Assembly (NCBI GenBank): GCA_005801425.1
Contig: SYDY01000119.1
Span: 1-26,566 of the forward strand
DNA length: 26,566 nucleotides
Direction: 5' to 3'
Source of the DNA: Bdellovibrionales bacterium
GTDB lineage: Bacteria; Myxococcota; XYA12-FULL-58-9; SYDY01
Shown: positions 7,990 through 26,159 of the stretch, piece after piece
How the letters are laid out: each line of letters begins with the position of its first letter
Position numbering within the stretch: the stretch's first letter is position 1
The notes under the pieces: generated by a model
What the model was told of the DNA's origin: nothing
Database searches by the model: none
What the model saw: only the letters and a program-made list of their open reading frames with translations
Position numbers and translations under genes: made by a program

Positions 7990-8843
7990 AGTGGAAAAAG
8001 AAGGTTGCATGGATCACCGGTGCATCAAGTGGGATCGGCCGTGCGTTGGCGTTAGAACTGGCACGCCAAGGGGCTGAAGTGGTTATTTCAGGAAGACGTC
8101 TTGAACGATTAAAATCGTTGCACGCTGAAATTTCTGTGATGGGAGGCCGCGCCCATATCGTTCCTTGCGATGTGAGCGTTGAAGCGTCGATACGCGATGC
8201 GGTTGCATCGATTATTCACACATGTGGCGCCTTGCATGTAGTCATCGCCAATGCCGGCTGGGCATTGCGCGGAGACATCGAAGAATTGAGCATGGACGAT
8301 TGGGAACGCCAATTTAAAACCAACGTCTTTGGTGCCGCACTCACTGCACGCTATGCACTCCCCCATTTGCGCGAAACAGGTGGCCGCATCGGTCTGGTTG
8401 GAAGCGTTTCATCGATGGTCCCCACACCGGCGCATGGCGCGTATACGGCATCTAAATATGCATTGCGCGGTCTTGGGCAAACGTTATCGCTTGAGCTCAC
8501 GGGAAGTGGTGTAAGCTGCACATTGCTGCATCCGGGGTTTGTCGCAAGTGAAGTGGCCCAAGTAGACAATCATGGAGTGTTTCAACCGCAGCGTATCGAC
8601 AAGCGCCCTTCATCGCTTATGTGGACAGCCGACAAAGCGGCACGTGTGATGCTTGGCGCACTCCACAAACGAAAACGCGAATACGTGTTTACATTGCACG
8701 GGAAATTTGCAGGATTCCTAGGGCGTCATCTTCCCGATGTGATGTACATGCTCTTGCGGAAAAAGCGATTTAAAACGTTTGAGGCGCCCTCCAACACCGC
8801 AAAGGCGCAGCAAGCTGCGCCCCTACCCCGCCGCAAGGCGTGA
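7986..8843 (+). CDS. Short-chain dehydrogenase/reductase
   Basis: A classical SDR of 285 residues: cofactor motif TGASSGIG (residues 11-18), NAG motif in VIANAGWAL, catalytic Ser in VGSVSSM, catalytic Tyr and Lys in YTASK, and LLHPGFV after the active site. Arg residues after the second strand (SGRRLERL) favour NADP(H). The substrate is unknown; the extended basic C-terminus with a hydrophobic stretch (FAGFLGRHLPDVMYMLLRKKRF) resembles membrane-associating SDRs that act on lipids or ketones. The ATG at 7986 overlaps the preceding stop. The final residues (AKAQQAAPLPRRKA) are encoded by a palindromic repeat, and the gene overlaps the 3' end of proline dehydrogenase by 21 bp. Confidence 0.92.
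   Translation: MKWKKKVAWITGASSGIGRALALELARQGAEVVISGRRLERLKSLHAEISVMGGRAHIVPCDVSVEASIRDAVASIIHTCGALHVVIANAGWALRGDIEELSMDDWERQFKTNVFGAALTARYALPHLRETGGRIGLVGSVSSMVPTPAHGAYTASKYALRGLGQTLSLELTGSGVSCTLLHPGFVASEVAQVDNHGVFQPQRIDKRPSSLMWTADKAARVMLGALHKRKREYVFTLHGKFAGFLGRHLPDVMYMLLRKKRFKTFEAPSNTAKAQQAAPLPRRKA
8804..8826. repeat. GGCGCAGC palindrome spanning two convergent gene ends
   Basis: GGCGCAGC (8804-8811) and GCTGCGCC (8814-8821) form a perfect 8-bp inverted repeat with a 2-nt centre, followed by CCTAC as in the other repeats. It encodes the last residues of the SDR on the plus strand, and its right flank carries the TAG stop of proline dehydrogenase on the minus strand. It may also act as a bidirectional terminator. 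A relative lies at 13466-13483. Confidence 0.75.
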
Positions 8844-13465: not shown

Positions 13466-13483
13466 GGCACAGCCTGCTGCGCC
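13466..13483. terminator. Imperfect palindrome between convergent tdh and DUF4392 genes
   Basis: GGCACAGC at 13466-13473 and GCTGCGCC at 13476-13483 pair with one mismatch. It fills the 20-bp gap between two convergent stops, so a bidirectional terminator is plausible; there is no T-tract. It resembles the repeat at 8804-8821 and is probably a degenerate member of that family. Confidence 0.5.
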
Positions 13484-15336: not shown

Positions 15337-17241
15337 ATGACATCAACACGGATAGGCGTTAGCGCCGTCAACGTTTTAACACCCAACAACCTAGCACAAA
15401 AAATTGATTTTAAACTGGAAGCGTTGATGCCACTCGTGGCCAATAGGCCCGTCGCCTTGCCCCTGCGTGATTCTCCTGCCGCAAAGATGGTGGTTACCCA
15501 TGATCTCATGTCCAAGCTCACAGTGGCCAAAACACCAACAGACGCGACACCGTCTGTCGCACTTACTTTTCTGGGTGAGCCCGCCTTGCAAGTGCGCAAT
15601 GGTGCCGAGCTCAAAGGCAACATGTTTGGCGGTATCGGCCGATGGATCGGCCGTCGCCTCGATACAGTGTGTGATGTTTTAGGGGTTCGCTACACACTCG
15701 ACGGTGTAGGAAGCAGCGCAAATGGCAATGCGCTCTCCATCGGCGCCACAGGCAAAATGCTTGGCTTCCGCGTTCCGCATACCCTCGATCGTATTGTTCC
15801 ACAATTTCTTACCGATGGGATCAGGAGCCAGATCCTTGGGACATCCACACTCGACGAAGGACCTGCTTCACTCACCGATTGGCAAACAGGCGTAGGCGTG
15901 ATGCGCGCCATGGGTTCGATGTCTAAACCTGAAGGGGGTGATTACACACTGACCGCAAAATTTCGTTTGGATGAACCTACACCGATGGTCATGGGTGATT
16001 GGGCCGTTGATCTTCCTAAGGGCACATTCACCTTGAATTTAAGCGGCAATGCGAAAGTCAACGCAGACACAGGTGAACTCACGCTCGAAAGCCAAGGCCA
16101 AGCATCAAACGCCGACCCCTATCGCAATTGCCTCAGTTGGGCCCATGGCGGTCTTTTGCACTATCCTGCAATATTTAACAAAAACACCGTATCCGTACGT
16201 TTTACCGATCCCGAAGCAGCACAAGGCGGCGTCGAAATGACAAGCAGTTATGCTGCAACGCTGCGCAGCCCCGACATCGATGCACAACAAACATGGCTAA
16301 GCATACGCAAAGCGACGTCAGCCGAAAAAGAAGCGGCTACACTGCAAGGCGGTGCGCAAAGCACCACAACATCGTGCCCATGGGCGTCCATGGCACCTCA
16401 AATCATTGAAAAAGCGTTCTCACTTCTACCCCAAAAAGAGCCTGCGCCGCAGATCTCGATTGATGCTATTCGCATGACCTCTGGCAAAGTATTGGCACAC
16501 AGTACTGAAACCAATCGTGACTATTGGCAAGCAGGCCTTGCCCTTGAAGGTGATCTCACGATTGCACCCAATCCTGGATCTATCCCGGGACATACAGTCA
16601 CAGCCCACACACATATCAAAGCATACGATCTTCAAATCAATGCTGCTCTCAACGGCAATCAAACCGTAGGCATTCAGACCAAAGCCAGTCCCTTTGGAAG
16701 TCCTGCCTTCAAAGCCGATATGGCCACAAAACTCGATCTCGGCACGTGGGCTGGGATCACAACAGTCGATCTCCACAATGTGGACGCGAAAATAACAAGC
16801 AATGTCCCAGGCGTTCCATCCAATCGAATCACCCTAGGAGATCCAAGCAGTCCTGATCTTAAAACACGCATCGCGATTGCATTAAGACCCCACGAAGAAA
16901 CAAGTGAGACATGCTATCGCGCTGCGCGAAATGCTTTGGGTGGGGATATGGAAATTCCCGCGCTCGGCACTTTTCAGCGCCATGGATGGGCCATAGGAGC
17001 GTCGATTCAAAGTGACGCCCAACATATGTTGGATCTTGGATTTAAATTTCCAATCCCCGATGGCACACTTCCAGGTTCCTTAACGATCAACGCAAAAACC
17101 CAGGCCATGCAGGCTGCAATCCTTTTAAGTGCATCCCACGCACCGCGTGTGGATACCGATACGCTGATTGAAGTTGCCTCTCAATTGCGCGGCGCAGGCA
17201 AAGAAGAGCCATGGCTTCGTAGCGCGCAACTGTTTGAATAA
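15337..17241 (+). CDS. Unrecognised 634-residue protein, probably beta-rich
   Basis: I do not recognise this protein. It has no signal peptide, membrane helix or lipobox. Composition and pattern suggest many beta strands: alternating hydrophobic and polar residues, many Thr, Ser, Gly and Asn, and repeated phrases such as GDYTLTAKFRLDEP, KGTFTLNLSGNAKVN and LPGSLTINAKTQ, each like a strand-turn-strand. An IGRWIGRRLDTVCDVLG segment near residue 100 could be an amphipathic helix. Six or so cysteines are scattered. The ATG at 15337 is preceded by GGGAGGGA five bases upstream, a strong site implying good expression. It is followed 60 bp later by the Ser/Thr kinase on the same strand. Possible roles include a structural or surface protein exported by another route. 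Confidence 0.8.
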   Translation: MTSTRIGVSAVNVLTPNNLAQKIDFKLEALMPLVANRPVALPLRDSPAAKMVVTHDLMSKLTVAKTPTDATPSVALTFLGEPALQVRNGAELKGNMFGGIGRWIGRRLDTVCDVLGVRYTLDGVGSSANGNALSIGATGKMLGFRVPHTLDRIVPQFLTDGIRSQILGTSTLDEGPASLTDWQTGVGVMRAMGSMSKPEGGDYTLTAKFRLDEPTPMVMGDWAVDLPKGTFTLNLSGNAKVNADTGELTLESQGQASNADPYRNCLSWAHGGLLHYPAIFNKNTVSVRFTDPEAAQGGVEMTSSYAATLRSPDIDAQQTWLSIRKATSAEKEAATLQGGAQSTTTSCPWASMAPQIIEKAFSLLPQKEPAPQISIDAIRMTSGKVLAHSTETNRDYWQAGLALEGDLTIAPNPGSIPGHTVTAHTHIKAYDLQINAALNGNQTVGIQTKASPFGSPAFKADMATKLDLGTWAGITTVDLHNVDAKITSNVPGVPSNRITLGDPSSPDLKTRIAIALRPHEETSETCYRAARNALGGDMEIPALGTFQRHGWAIGASIQSDAQHMLDLGFKFPIPDGTLPGSLTINAKTQAMQAAILLSASHAPRVDTDTLIEVASQLRGAGKEEPWLRSAQLFE

Positions 17242-17301: not shown

Positions 17302-18453
17302 ATGACCTCACCCGCAACACGAACCATAGGCGAGTATCACATCATCAAACGCCTCGGCTTGGGTGGCATGGGCGAAGTGTTTTTGGCCGAAAAAACCATG
17401 ACCATGGGATTTCGCAAACGTGTTGCGATTAAAGTGCCTACTGCATTAAATTCCGATGATCTTGCACGTTTTGAAGCCGAAGCAATTTTGGCAGCAACCT
17501 TGCAACATCAAAATATTGTGCAAGTGTACGATCTAAAAACCGATCATGAACGCCCTGCCCTTGTGATGGAATACATCGACGGCGTGACGCTTGCGCAACT
17601 GCTCGCCCACGCGCACGGGCATCGCACACCACTCCCCACCTCGGTGATCGTTCATATTGCGTCAGGCGTAAGCGCAGCACTTGCCTACGCGCACCAACTT
17701 ACCGATGAAAATAATCGCCCACGGCATGTGATCCACCGCGATGTATGTCCTCACAATATCATGATCGACCGCACAGGCCGTGTGCTGCTCACCGATTTCG
17801 GTATCGCATCAAGTATACAAAATCTGTCAGATCCAAGTCTCGGCAAAGATCGCTATGCTTCGCCTGAACAGCGTCAGGGCGGCCCACTCGGACCTGCGAC
17901 AGATCAGTATGCTTTCGGACGTGTGATGTGGGAATGCATCGGTGCGGGCGATAGTAACCTGCGCACAGGTTCTGAACCCACCGCCCATGCGCTTCACCAA
18001 TGGTTTGGACGCGCCATCGAAGAGAAGCCCGAAGACCGATTTTTAAATATGGCGATCTTGCATGACAACGTCCAACGCTTGCCTTGCACACAAGGGATCA
18101 CCGAACTTGCGCAATGGGTCAAACGTGTTGCAGCTCCAAAAGAACAAACGCACAATTTTGAAAGAACAACACGCCTAAGTATTCGGCATGCGCGGTTCAC
18201 AAAAAGACATGCGATCTATGTTTCGGTTGTTATCCTATGCGTGGTATTCATTTTCATTGTAGGGGCGATTCGCGAAGCGCCCCGCACCATGGGTCCCCGC
18301 TTTCGCGAGGATGACGTTTTAAAAGAGCGGTTCACGAACCGCCCCTATACCATAGATCCCCGCCTGCGCGGGGATAACAAGAAAAAGCTATCACAACATC
18401 GATATGAAGAATCACTCAAGAACAAACTCAATCACGACGCGCCTTTTCCATAA
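17302..18453 (+). CDS. Membrane-anchored Ser/Thr protein kinase with repeat-encoded tail
   Basis: Eukaryote-like (Hanks-type) protein kinase, 383 residues. The kinase domain spans about residues 12-270: glycine loop GLGGMGEV (19-26), ATP lysine Lys44, probable helix-C Glu60, HRD at 145-147, DFG at 165-167 and SPE at 187-189. The catalytic loop reads HRDVCPHN, with Cys149 where most kinases have Lys. The C-lobe is short. A juxtamembrane basic region leads to one membrane helix (about 304-322). The remaining residues, from about 319 to 359, are translated from a cluster of palindromic repeats (18257-18380) and are followed by a charged tail. No sensor domain is present. The gene overlaps the convergent exported protein by 26 bp. 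No strong Shine-Dalgarno precedes ATG 17302. Confidence 0.9.
   Translation: MTSPATRTIGEYHIIKRLGLGGMGEVFLAEKTMTMGFRKRVAIKVPTALNSDDLARFEAEAILAATLQHQNIVQVYDLKTDHERPALVMEYIDGVTLAQLLAHAHGHRTPLPTSVIVHIASGVSAALAYAHQLTDENNRPRHVIHRDVCPHNIMIDRTGRVLLTDFGIASSIQNLSDPSLGKDRYASPEQRQGGPLGPATDQYAFGRVMWECIGAGDSNLRTGSEPTAHALHQWFGRAIEEKPEDRFLNMAILHDNVQRLPCTQGITELAQWVKRVAAPKEQTHNFERTTRLSIRHARFTKRHAIYVSVVILCVVFIFIVGAIREAPRTMGPRFREDDVLKERFTNRPYTIDPRLRGDNKKKLSQHRYEESLKNKLNHDAPFP
18257..18380. repeat. Cluster of four palindromic repeat units inside kinase coding sequence
   Basis: Four units in a row: a near-perfect GGGGCG-type palindrome at 18262-18283; a 28-bp copy at 18288-18315 identical to 15214-15241; a GCGGTTCACGAACCGC unit at about 18325-18347; and a perfect 8-bp stem ATCCCCGC/GCGGGGAT with a 4-nt loop at 18356-18375. 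All are read in frame, giving peptides such as GPRFREDD and DPRLRGD in the kinase tail. Confidence 0.88.
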
Positions 18454-19492
18454 AATTCAAATCGACTTTTCCACCTGAAACATGCTTCACGCGTACCACT
18501 TGGCGGAAGCTTTTCGCCTCACCGATAAATGATGCAACATCTTGGGCGCCTCCCAATACACGTGCATGCAATGTGGCAATCCCATTTTCGTAAGATATAA
18601 TTTTCACAGAATCAAACATTTGCACACGACGTTTTAGTTCAGCACGCAACCACGACGCCCAACCATAATCTGGGACATTCGAAATAGTCAGGACCACATC
18701 GCTTTCTGGAAAAATATTTTTATCATATCCCTTTACTGCAAGTTTCAATTTCTCCATAGCCCATACAACACTTCGCTCACGCAATGCATTCAATGCTGCC
18801 GCATCGCTAAATCGTGCTGCGCTTAAGAGCACAAACGGATCTCCCAAAATCTGACCATCGCGCAATGCTGTTGTCGTCAACGTCATCGAAGCACTTCGAT
18901 GCTGCAATGGCATCAATTCTTCATCTGTACTCAAAACCGTTTTCACAGTTGGCGCGTCCATCGCAACATCCATCGAGATACGCACTTCACATCGGCCTTC
19001 ATTGTCATGGACGGTCCATCCACGCTCTTTCATGGTTTCACGCAATGCAGAAATCATTTCACGGCTCGCGGTTTCCGCCGTTTCAGCAAAACACCAGACC
19101 ACTTCCACGGAAGTATTTGATATCGCGTTGCTTGGCATAACCACGGCACTCAATGTCACCGTACACAATGTCCGATCTGTACCCGAAACAGGACGTTTTT
19201 CCGTATGCTCAACACGCACATCATCCACCGCACCCACGCCTGTAAATTCGATTTCTTCATCAACAAGATGTTCCTGAAGCACGCGCGTTCGACTGCGCAC
19301 ATGCACCCCCGCATTGCGCTCGATCACATCCCGCAATGCACGCCGATGGGCTGACTCACAGGCACTCGATTCGTCCTCAGCGGTGGCCTCGCCTTGGCCT
19401 GTCATCCGCGAGGATCCTGCCAATGCACTGCAAGGCACCCACACAGCGATAAAAATCCCAATTAAAGCATTCCATTGTATCATTATATTCAT
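18428..19492 (-). CDS. Exported protein with FlgT/LPP20-like N-terminal domain
   Basis: A 354-residue protein with a signal peptide: hydrophobic run ALIGIFIAVWVP and a likely cut after CSALA (residue 25). The mature N-terminus, GQGEATAEDESSACESAHRRALRDVIERNAGVHVRSRTRV, has the pattern of the FlgT/LPP20 fold found in periplasmic and outer-membrane proteins. The C-terminal third (VVLTISNVPDYGWASWLRAELKRRV... to the end) looks like a second alpha/beta domain of the same kind. The precise family is not recognised. The start is ATG 19492 or the next ATG at 19483; the frame is open upstream but would spoil the signal peptide. It is convergent with the Ser/Thr kinase (26-bp overlap) and divergent from the glutamine synthetase gene. 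Confidence 0.75.
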   Translation of the reverse strand: MNIMIQWNALIGIFIAVWVPCSALAGSSRMTGQGEATAEDESSACESAHRRALRDVIERNAGVHVRSRTRVLQEHLVDEEIEFTGVGAVDDVRVEHTEKRPVSGTDRTLCTVTLSAVVMPSNAISNTSVEVVWCFAETAETASREMISALRETMKERGWTVHDNEGRCEVRISMDVAMDAPTVKTVLSTDEELMPLQHRSASMTLTTTALRDGQILGDPFVLLSAARFSDAAALNALRERSVVWAMEKLKLAVKGYDKNIFPESDVVLTISNVPDYGWASWLRAELKRRVQMFDSVKIISYENGIATLHARVLGGAQDVASFIGEAKSFRQVVRVKHVSGGKVDLNFMEKARRD

Positions 19493-19570
19493 AACGTATA
19501 CACGTTCCCTTGCGAAAACAGTCAAAAAACGCAATGGTGTGGACCTCATTTCCCCAGGAGGCGCCCCCCC

Positions 19571-23660: not shown

Positions 23661-26159
23661 ATGCGTTTCAGCGCCCCCTTGCCAATCAACATGCTGCTCG
23701 TTTTTGCGTTGGCTTCATGCCAACAAACCGTCGACAACACACGATGTCCCGCGGGCAAGATATGTTACGACAGTGAAGAGCTCACCGAATGCATCGGCGA
23801 CAGTGATTGTGCAGATGGGGCTCTGTGCCTCACCGATGGGCCACTGTTCGGCTATTGCGATGCAGGTACTTTTCTCCTCAGCGACAGTGATCAGGATACA
23901 ATCCTCAATTACCATGACAACTGTTTTCTTGTATCCAACCTCGATCAAGCCAATCACGATAACGACGACCTCGGCGATGCATGCGACACCGACGACGACG
24001 ATGACGGTGTTCTTGATGCGCATCCAGACAACTGTCCACTCATCCCAAACGACGACCAAACCAACACCGATGCAGCCAATGACGGCGGTGATTCATGCGA
24101 CACCGACGACGATAATGACGGAGTCCCCGATCTCAACGATAACTGTTCGCGCATCATCAATAATTCGCAGGCCAATGCCGATTTTGATTCACTGGGTGAT
24201 GCATGCGACAGCGATAAAGATGGCGATGGCGTTACGAATGGCATCGACAATTGTCCGGTGGTCTACAATATCGATCAGCTTAACTTCGACAACGATGAGC
24301 TGGGAGATGCATGCGATGACGATGCCGATGGTGATGAAGTTCTCGATATCTCAGATAATTGTTTGCTTCTGAGCAATTCTGCTCCCCAAGACGACACAGA
24401 CAACGATGCATTGGGCGATGATTGCGATCCCGATGACGACAATGACACGATCCTCGATGGCAATGACAACTGCCCACTTGATGCCAACAACAATCAAGCT
24501 GATGAAGACAACGATGATCTTGGTGATGTTTGTGACGGCGATGCAGATGGAGATGAGGCGGTGAATGACAATTGCCCCACGGCCTACAACCCCGCCCAAG
24601 GCACCACCGATTGCTTTGATGACGATGGCGATGGCATCCCCAATGTGATCGATAACTGTCTCTGGTATGCCAACAGCGACCAGCGCGTGTCTTCCGACAA
24701 TCCTTTTACGTACAGCAATCGCAATATTGCACCCGCTACAGCCATGCCCATGGGCGATGCGTGCACCATCAAAAAAATAGTAGCAGGCGCCCATCACACC
24801 TGCGCACTCCTCTACGGTGGAAACCTCAAATGCTGGGGATACAATGCATACGGGTGGCTCGGTCTCGGCCACACATCAAGTATTGGATCAACTCCCGGAT
24901 CCACAGGAAAAAATATTCCCCTGATCACCCCCGATTCACGACCTGCTATCGACATCGCTTTGGGTCCTTGGAACACGTGTGTGGTGTTGACCGATAATAC
25001 GATCAAGTGTTGGGGCGAGCAGGACTCGGGTATTTTAGGGCAAGACGTCTCAATACTCTCCGGCGTCATCGACAATTACGGCGACTCCATCACCGAGTCT
25101 GTTTTTCGACTTCCATCCTTTGGCATCACCGACAACGACAACATCGGTAGCATCAAAAATATCGCCGTGGGTAGACAAACGAGCTGCGCGCTTCTCGCCG
25201 GTGGCAATATTCGATGCTGGGGAAATACCGGAAGTACCTATTATACCCGTGGTAATAATGCGGCAGAGCCCAGCACAAACTACAGTCTCACGAATGTCGC
25301 CACCACCTCAGGGAACTTAAAAGCCCGCCAAATGCATCTGGGACTTTTCCATGGTTGTGCCATTGGACAAAATATCCAGTCGACTCCAGAGCTCATCGAT
25401 GAATCAAAATATATTTATTGCTGGGGATGGAACCCAAATGGACAGCTGGGTATCGGTTCAACAAACAACACCAATACAGCAACACCAACGCTTCTCAATA
25501 GCGCACCCTATGTATGGACCACGCCACGGCGTGTTGTGACCGCTCTTGGTTGGAGTGATGAGGATGGTGAAAGTACCTACGGACGTTTCAGCTGCGCTCT
25601 CCATGGAACAGGACAGCTGACATGCTGGGGCCTTAACAATATTGGACAACTAGGCCTCAATAGCATCAGCCAACAGCCCAGTATCCCCAACACCTCGGGC
25701 AGCATCCAAACCGTTAATCTCGGCGTTACGAATGCAAAAATTCTCGACATCGCCCTCGGCGCCCAACATGTCTGCGCGCTCTACACAACAAGTGCTGTCA
25801 CGTGGCCAACCGGCGATCTCACATCGCCTGTCTGGGCACTGCAAACCTGCCACAACACAACATGTGCCATTAAATGCTGGGGAGAGAATGACCACAATCA
25901 GCTGGGATTTTCAAACAACCCCAACGTTAATTACGGAAGCGACAGCAGCTCAGCGAGCGTCGCCTCATCTACCGCAATCACCAGTTTAGGATCCAGTTAT
26001 CCACTCCAAGTCACAGCAGGAAAAATGCACACCTGCACACTCAACAAAAATAACGAGGTTTACTGTTGGGGACGCAATGACCATGGAGAGATTGGTCAGG
26101 GTCATACGACCAATCCCATAACCACCCCCACATATGTCGATCTAGGATTGCGACCATAG
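23661..26159 (+). CDS. Surface lipoprotein with thrombospondin type-3 repeats and a seven-unit RCC1-like domain
   Basis: An 832-residue secreted lipoprotein. The signal peptide ends in the lipobox LASC, with lipid-modified Cys20. A short Cys-rich linker (about residues 27-70) is followed by eight thrombospondin type-3 modules (about 74-345), each with Asp-rich calcium loops and a DNC motif. The C-terminal 460 residues hold seven RCC1-like units with a paired-cysteine pattern, CAL followed by CWG (for example HTCALLYGGNLKCWG), and GQLGLG-like turns. Seven units match a complete beta-propeller, probably braced by one disulfide per blade. Unit six has an insertion with extra cysteines. Such proteins are common on the surface of myxobacteria-like bacteria; the ligand is unknown. 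No clear Shine-Dalgarno precedes ATG 23661. The TAG stop abuts a repeat pair. Confidence 0.92.
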   Translation: MRFSAPLPINMLLVFALASCQQTVDNTRCPAGKICYDSEELTECIGDSDCADGALCLTDGPLFGYCDAGTFLLSDSDQDTILNYHDNCFLVSNLDQANHDNDDLGDACDTDDDDDGVLDAHPDNCPLIPNDDQTNTDAANDGGDSCDTDDDNDGVPDLNDNCSRIINNSQANADFDSLGDACDSDKDGDGVTNGIDNCPVVYNIDQLNFDNDELGDACDDDADGDEVLDISDNCLLLSNSAPQDDTDNDALGDDCDPDDDNDTILDGNDNCPLDANNNQADEDNDDLGDVCDGDADGDEAVNDNCPTAYNPAQGTTDCFDDDGDGIPNVIDNCLWYANSDQRVSSDNPFTYSNRNIAPATAMPMGDACTIKKIVAGAHHTCALLYGGNLKCWGYNAYGWLGLGHTSSIGSTPGSTGKNIPLITPDSRPAIDIALGPWNTCVVLTDNTIKCWGEQDSGILGQDVSILSGVIDNYGDSITESVFRLPSFGITDNDNIGSIKNIAVGRQTSCALLAGGNIRCWGNTGSTYYTRGNNAAEPSTNYSLTNVATTSGNLKARQMHLGLFHGCAIGQNIQSTPELIDESKYIYCWGWNPNGQLGIGSTNNTNTATPTLLNSAPYVWTTPRRVVTALGWSDEDGESTYGRFSCALHGTGQLTCWGLNNIGQLGLNSISQQPSIPNTSGSIQTVNLGVTNAKILDIALGAQHVCALYTTSAVTWPTGDLTSPVWALQTCHNTTCAIKCWGENDHNQLGFSNNPNVNYGSDSSSASVASSTAITSLGSSYPLQVTAGKMHTCTLNKNNEVYCWGRNDHGEIGQGHTTNPITTPTYVDLGLRP

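Follow-up and report, generated by a model that had tools for sequence, protein, structure and literature searches.

How did a Ser/Thr kinase come to carry a run of dispersed palindromic repeats, read in frame, directly behind its only membrane helix, and is the resulting tail a working part of the protein? We addressed this question in a 26,566-nt stretch of DNA (the window), which is contig C116 of a 121-contig, 3.38-Mb genome assembly. Genes were called with a dicodon score made for the present analysis.

The kinase reading frame and its neighbours

The kinase ORF (17302..18453, + strand) encodes 383 aa with a single predicted membrane helix near the C-terminus. A Pfam profile search placed the Pkinase domain at residues 12-213 (E 7e-30), and the motifs GLGGMGEV, VAIK, HRDVCPHN and DFG were readable in the sequence. 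Hydropathy peaked at residues 305-323, the sole hydrophobic stretch of the protein, so VGAI, the final residues of the helix, is already encoded by the repeats. About 60 residues follow the helix, two thirds of them repeat-derived. Beyond residue 222, Pfam returned no match except a sub-threshold one to the helix, and neither Pfam nor hydropathy revealed a folded extracytoplasmic sensor domain of the kind carried by receptor Ser/Thr kinases. The first-pass annotation had placed the tail directly behind the only membrane helix and had seen no other extracytoplasmic domain; hydropathy confirmed the former, and hydropathy together with the Pfam search the latter.

Behind the repeats, the rest of the kinase frame (18382..18453, + strand) encodes KKLSQHRYEESLKNKLNHDAPFP and ends with TAA at 18451-18453, leaving about 24 codons between the array and the stop. 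These codons, whose coding score favours neither origin, may be either the original short tail or one-time intergenic DNA. Codon scores are low from about 18142 onward, that is, already over the helix and before the array. A convergent ORF of 373 aa without Pfam match (18428..19549, - strand) has its stop at 18428, so that the array sits between two convergent genes whose 3' ends overlap by 26 nt.

Four units of two REP families

The array occupies 18259-18378 and translates in the kinase frame as VGAIREAPRTMGPRFREDDVLKERFTNRPYTIDPRLRGDN, about 40 aa. Its four units lie at 18262-18283, 18294-18315, 18324-18345 and 18357-18378. Assignment of all four to a single repeat family was rejected, and two families with separate genome counts were recognised, a GTAG-tagged and a CGTC-tagged REP, both of kinds known in many bacteria. 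The order is GTAG> CGTC <GTAG CGTC, a head-to-head GTAG pair around one CGTC unit with a second CGTC unit outside.

The first GTAG unit (18259..18283, + strand; GTAGGGGCGATTCGCGAAGCGCCCC) has its tag beside a short palindrome (GTAGGGGCG...CGCCCC at 18259) and gives the end of the helix plus the following residues, VGAIREAPR. Within the GTAG pair lies the first CGTC unit (18290..18316, - strand; reverse complement CGTCATCCTCGCGAAAGCGGGGACCCA), which reads CGTC-ATCCTCGC-GAAA-GCGGGGAC-CCA with an imperfect stem and encodes MGPRFREDDV. The second GTAG unit (18324..18348, - strand) is the head-to-head partner of the first; its tag has decayed to ATAG, and it encodes KERFTNRPY. The outer CGTC unit (18353..18381, - strand) has a degenerate tag and the stem and 4-nt loop ATCCCCGC-GCAG-GCGGGGAT, and encodes IDPRLRGDNK. 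The CGTC units show the geometry of CGTC family 1 of Di Nocera et al. (PMC3733652), namely a CGTC/TGTC tag, an 8-bp stem, a 4-nt loop and a CCA-like tail. All units are short and diverged, with a stem mismatch in the first and two changes in the third.

The GTAG tag of the array is out of frame. Of the three forward frames across the array, two contain stops; the third has none, and it allows the kinase frame to continue through the array. Judged from the sequence, the array is an in-frame intragenic REP group lying wholly within an ORF and translated without a stop. As RNA, it folds far better than its shuffles (z = -5.0). The earlier description of four dispersed palindromic units inside the kinase frame was therefore upheld at 18259-18378, with an intact-looking ORF and stop-free translation. 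The repeat origin of the segment, its reading frame and its position, and the copy number of the repeats, are all direct observations.

The GTAG and CGTC families in the genome

The GTAG family (pattern GGGCGNTTCRYGAANCGCCC) has 233 sites genome-wide at ≤1 mismatch, compared with 0 for the reversed-pattern control; with the GTAG tag included, 114 matches per strand were found at ≤1 mismatch. The CGTC family (pattern TCCCCGCNTNCGCGRGGATRAC; on the opposite strand CGTC-ATCCYCGC-NNNN-GCGGGGAY-CCA) has 73 genome matches at ≤2 mismatches, again with 0 in the control. Mononucleotide shuffles of 1.12 Mb contained zero units of either family at ≤2 mismatches. No members of the GTAG family were found in 38 related genomes.

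GTAG units pair head-to-head throughout the genome, most often 47 nt apart and with spacers of about 25 nt that resemble one another, the arrangement and preferred spacing of a REPIN. The kinase pair stands 62 nt apart, with a CGTC unit between its members. The same arrangement, a GTAG pair around a CGTC unit, was seen at C36:11170-11300 (L187) and C68:43137-43245 (L068), and because such pairs recur, the kinase array is a mosaic type present elsewhere in the genome. The C68 pair retains a recognisable end of the common 25-nt spacer (ATTCAAA..CCGCA). A candidate remnant of this spacer in the kinase pair was rejected, 138 of 500 shuffles being equally good. A third short palindrome, GGCGCAGCNNGCTGCGCC, lies near gene ends at window positions 8804-8821 and 13466-13483, once with CCCCTAC-like flanks, and is possibly another REP family.

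Capture of REP units in other genes

Capture rates were estimated from 1.12 Mb, one third of the genome, with units called at ≤2 mismatches. This sample contained 140 units, of which 103 were intergenic, 7 overlapped a gene end and 30 lay in frame inside 20 genes; the sampled stretches were mostly on contigs picked for carrying units, so that unit density may be inflated and the in-gene share should be less affected. The 233 GTAG sites and the intergenic share (103/140, both families pooled) mark the GTAG family as a high-copy, dispersed and mainly intergenic repeat. Genes are avoided about fourfold, since random placement would put 117 units in genes. Units concentrate just 3' of genes, 0-10 nt past stops, and between convergent genes, and some GTAG tags provide the TAG stop codon of genes in this genome.

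At least two units were present in 8 of the 20 captured genes and adjacent groups in 6; the kinase, with four units, has the highest count among the captured genes of the sample. In FeoB, the captured segment (residues 162-180) lies in the linker between FeoB_N (end 160) and Gate (start 295), and in an AddA-like nuclease (residues 857-878) between UvrD_C (end 772) and PDDEXK (start 880). Other captured genes encode an MrfA-like helicase, a PEP-utilising enzyme, two ABC permeases, an Rce1-like protease and large PKS-like proteins; names given without a Pfam match were read off the sequence. The FeoB and OppC captures show tolerance rather than an exact empty site, because the flanking stretches are too variable in alignments with relatives. 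Captures at the C-terminus also occur, in a sugar transferase (L122) that ends in VIPAQAGTQCHYAGSPHARG, its stop lying within a unit, and in a 184-aa ORF (L174:8054-8608) that ends in DPRVREDDGGKK.

Conserved carriers of captures, including AddA/AddB-like proteins, were seen on L115, L123, L106, L103, L112, L094 and L093, with peptides such as GAVREPP and VIPAKAGI. Several capture-carrying genes are DNA-repair genes, matching reports for REPs elsewhere. The window also holds an 832-aa ORF (23661-26159) with Asp-rich thrombospondin type 3-like repeats and RCC1-like CWG repeats, and a similar RCC1-like ORF (L102:1803-3080) begins with a GTAG unit at its very start.

Orthologue searches and the ancestral state

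An orthologue of the kinase was found neither in 38 related genomes, whose matches were confined to the general kinase domain and reached at most 45% identity, nor among GTDB contigs or viral contigs. The C-terminal half had no orthologue in 194 other genomes of the phylum or in plasmids. The upstream neighbour (15337-17241) and the convergent gene were compared with 8 genomes of the order, and each matched only its own genome. Since no array-free orthologue was found, we infer the insertion at the kinase gene from the repeat nature of the segment.

Deleting exactly 18259-18378 (120 nt, from GTAG to GATAAC) keeps the frame and leaves a protein ending in VVFIFIKKKLSQHRYEESLKNKLNHDAPFP, although this depends on the chosen ends and a shift of the deletion by 1-2 nt breaks the frame. 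In the paralogue L193 (469 aa) of this genome, the natural C-terminus consists of a membrane helix followed by about 20 residues. From this in-frame removal and this paralogue, a tail-anchored kinase is favoured as the ancestor.

Proposed origin of the tail and alternative explanations

The tail probably goes back to REPs that entered a tail-anchored kinase gene close to its 3' end and were read through in frame and tolerated, a reading that we hold with good though not full confidence. A REPIN-like GTAG pair and two CGTC units would have inserted near the kinase 3' end, beside the convergent neighbour, and the protein would have gained about 40 residues directly behind its C-terminal membrane helix. 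The array was probably kept since it is harmless there, like the other captured REPs of the genome, and at the RNA level it would give the kinase message a strong hairpin at its end. The segment would be made as protein and is predicted to be neutral, disordered and extracytoplasmic; most likely, the tail is a flexible extracytoplasmic extension without function.

The insertion itself would be the work of a REP-spreading process. RAYT transposases are thought to spread GTAG REPs, and according to PMC3733652 a RAYT flanked by the same REP is common for, and not required of, a GTAG REP. No RAYT flanked by the GTAG family was found: the genome gave 4 Y1 transposase matches, with no GTAG unit in their flanks (mostly 1.5 kb). 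One REP-type tyrosine transposase, L160:5310-6284 (C118:203309-204283, near the contig end), scores above the cut-off for Pfam Y1_Tnp and below it for NCBIfam REP_Tyr_transpos. Its borders are inverted repeats around GTGCCGGGTATTCACCGT instead of the genome's GTAG REPs, and it resembles the TIR-flanked type of Di Nocera 2013 (PMC3733652).

Several other explanations were weighed against this insertion. The array might have inserted between the two genes and eliminated or shifted the original stop, so that everything past residue ~320, including the last 24 residues, is read-through. We give this version somewhat less than an even chance; it is a variant of the insertion near the gene end and shares its mechanism. 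The genome's REPs typically begin just past stops, and the array does lie between convergent genes. The low codon scores over this region also agree with read-through, but they fall before the array, over the helix, and hence do not separate the two cases, and exact removal from GTAG to GATAAC preserves the frame. The first-pass annotation had suggested instead that the repeats may have replaced a sensor domain, which recombination or deletion at the repeats could have removed or truncated. Most other membrane-anchored kinases of the genome indeed exceed it in length, at 500 to over 720 aa, and continue past the helix. However, the genome also has kinases without such a domain, including the tail-anchored L193 and a 347-aa kinase without a helix; moreover, no domain remnant is visible, and only about 24 codons follow before the convergent gene. 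As L193 is naturally tail-anchored and the array-free kinase would be such a protein, the suggestion found no support, and we regard the loss of a sensor domain as improbable.

An assembly or sequencing error, in which a faulty join at the repeats or an indel creates a false frame, is very unlikely. The units are high-copy repeats in a 121-contig assembly, and a one-base shift would bring the TAG of the GTAG tag into frame as a stop; nevertheless, the units are short and diverged, and random errors would not account for an in-frame pattern repeated across many genes. We give still less credence to adoption of the tail as a working part of the kinase, such as an extracytoplasmic ligand-binding or interaction segment. 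The tail is the sole predicted extracytoplasmic segment of the protein, but its peptide is a plain translation of the repeat consensus, and other, unrelated proteins of the genome contain similar peptides (GAVREPP, GPRIREDD). A broader proposal, that mixed GTAG/CGTC arrays actively supply this lineage with new extracytoplasmic tails or linkers and that the kinase tail was kept for a function in anchoring, interaction or sensing, seems to us just as far-fetched.

Meaning of the capture

The kinase capture is neither unique nor a new type, being one of many in its genome. To our knowledge, there is no earlier report of such captures from the lineage of this kinase. The array and its counterparts show that in-frame REP capture, best known from Rickettsia, is common in a Myxococcota-like lineage distant from the best-known published examples. 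For annotation, the array serves as a warning that the final 60 residues of the kinase are for the most part not ancestral protein. A genome rich in captures could also serve to probe which sites in proteins tolerate insertions; it implies no new mechanism. In-frame, grouped capture of GTAG/CGTC REPs was already published in 2013, and the kinase is a well-confirmed further case, with both super-families in one ORF.

Comparison with known systems

Di Nocera et al. 2013 (PMC3733652) described GTAG/CGTC REPs lying in frame inside genes and reported that over half of them are dimers or groups and that intragenic clusters encode 43-82 aa, some at the gene end. The claim that several captured units in a row are unusual is therefore not borne out, with over half of the intragenic REPs grouped in that study and adjacent groups in 6 of 20 genes here. 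Those REPs share with the kinase array the same two tags, head-to-head dimers, in-frame translation, grouping and, in some cases, a position at the gene 3' end, and they too occur in DNA-repair genes. Compared with the paper's text, the kinase array differs in that both super-families alternate in one ORF, and also in its host gene, a Ser/Thr kinase of a Myxococcota-like MAG.

The likeness to Rickettsia palindromic elements proposed at first pass also stands. Palindromes are translated in frame in both systems, and the comparison holds because R. conorii RPE-4 and RPE-6 are CGTC-tagged REPs according to PMC3733652 and two kinase units carry the CGTC tag. Classical RPEs such as RPE-1, as described in the review PMC10969869, are about 150 bp long and encode a conserved peptide; the kinase units, at 22-27 nt, do not belong to the RPE-1 type.

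REPINs (Bertels and Rainey 2011, PMC3116915) resemble the GTAG units of this genome in their inverted pairs, preferred spacing and hairpin potential. Their definition was based on extragenic regions and linked them to RAYT transposases (PMC3116915), whereas the kinase pair is intragenic and has another REP in its spacer, and a RAYT flanked by its family was not found. Finally, the kinase shares with a tail-anchored bacterial Ser/Thr kinase, the paralogue L193, a kinase domain, a juxtamembrane segment, one C-terminal helix and a short tail, and differs from tail-anchored kinases in that about 40 residues of its tail derive from repeats.
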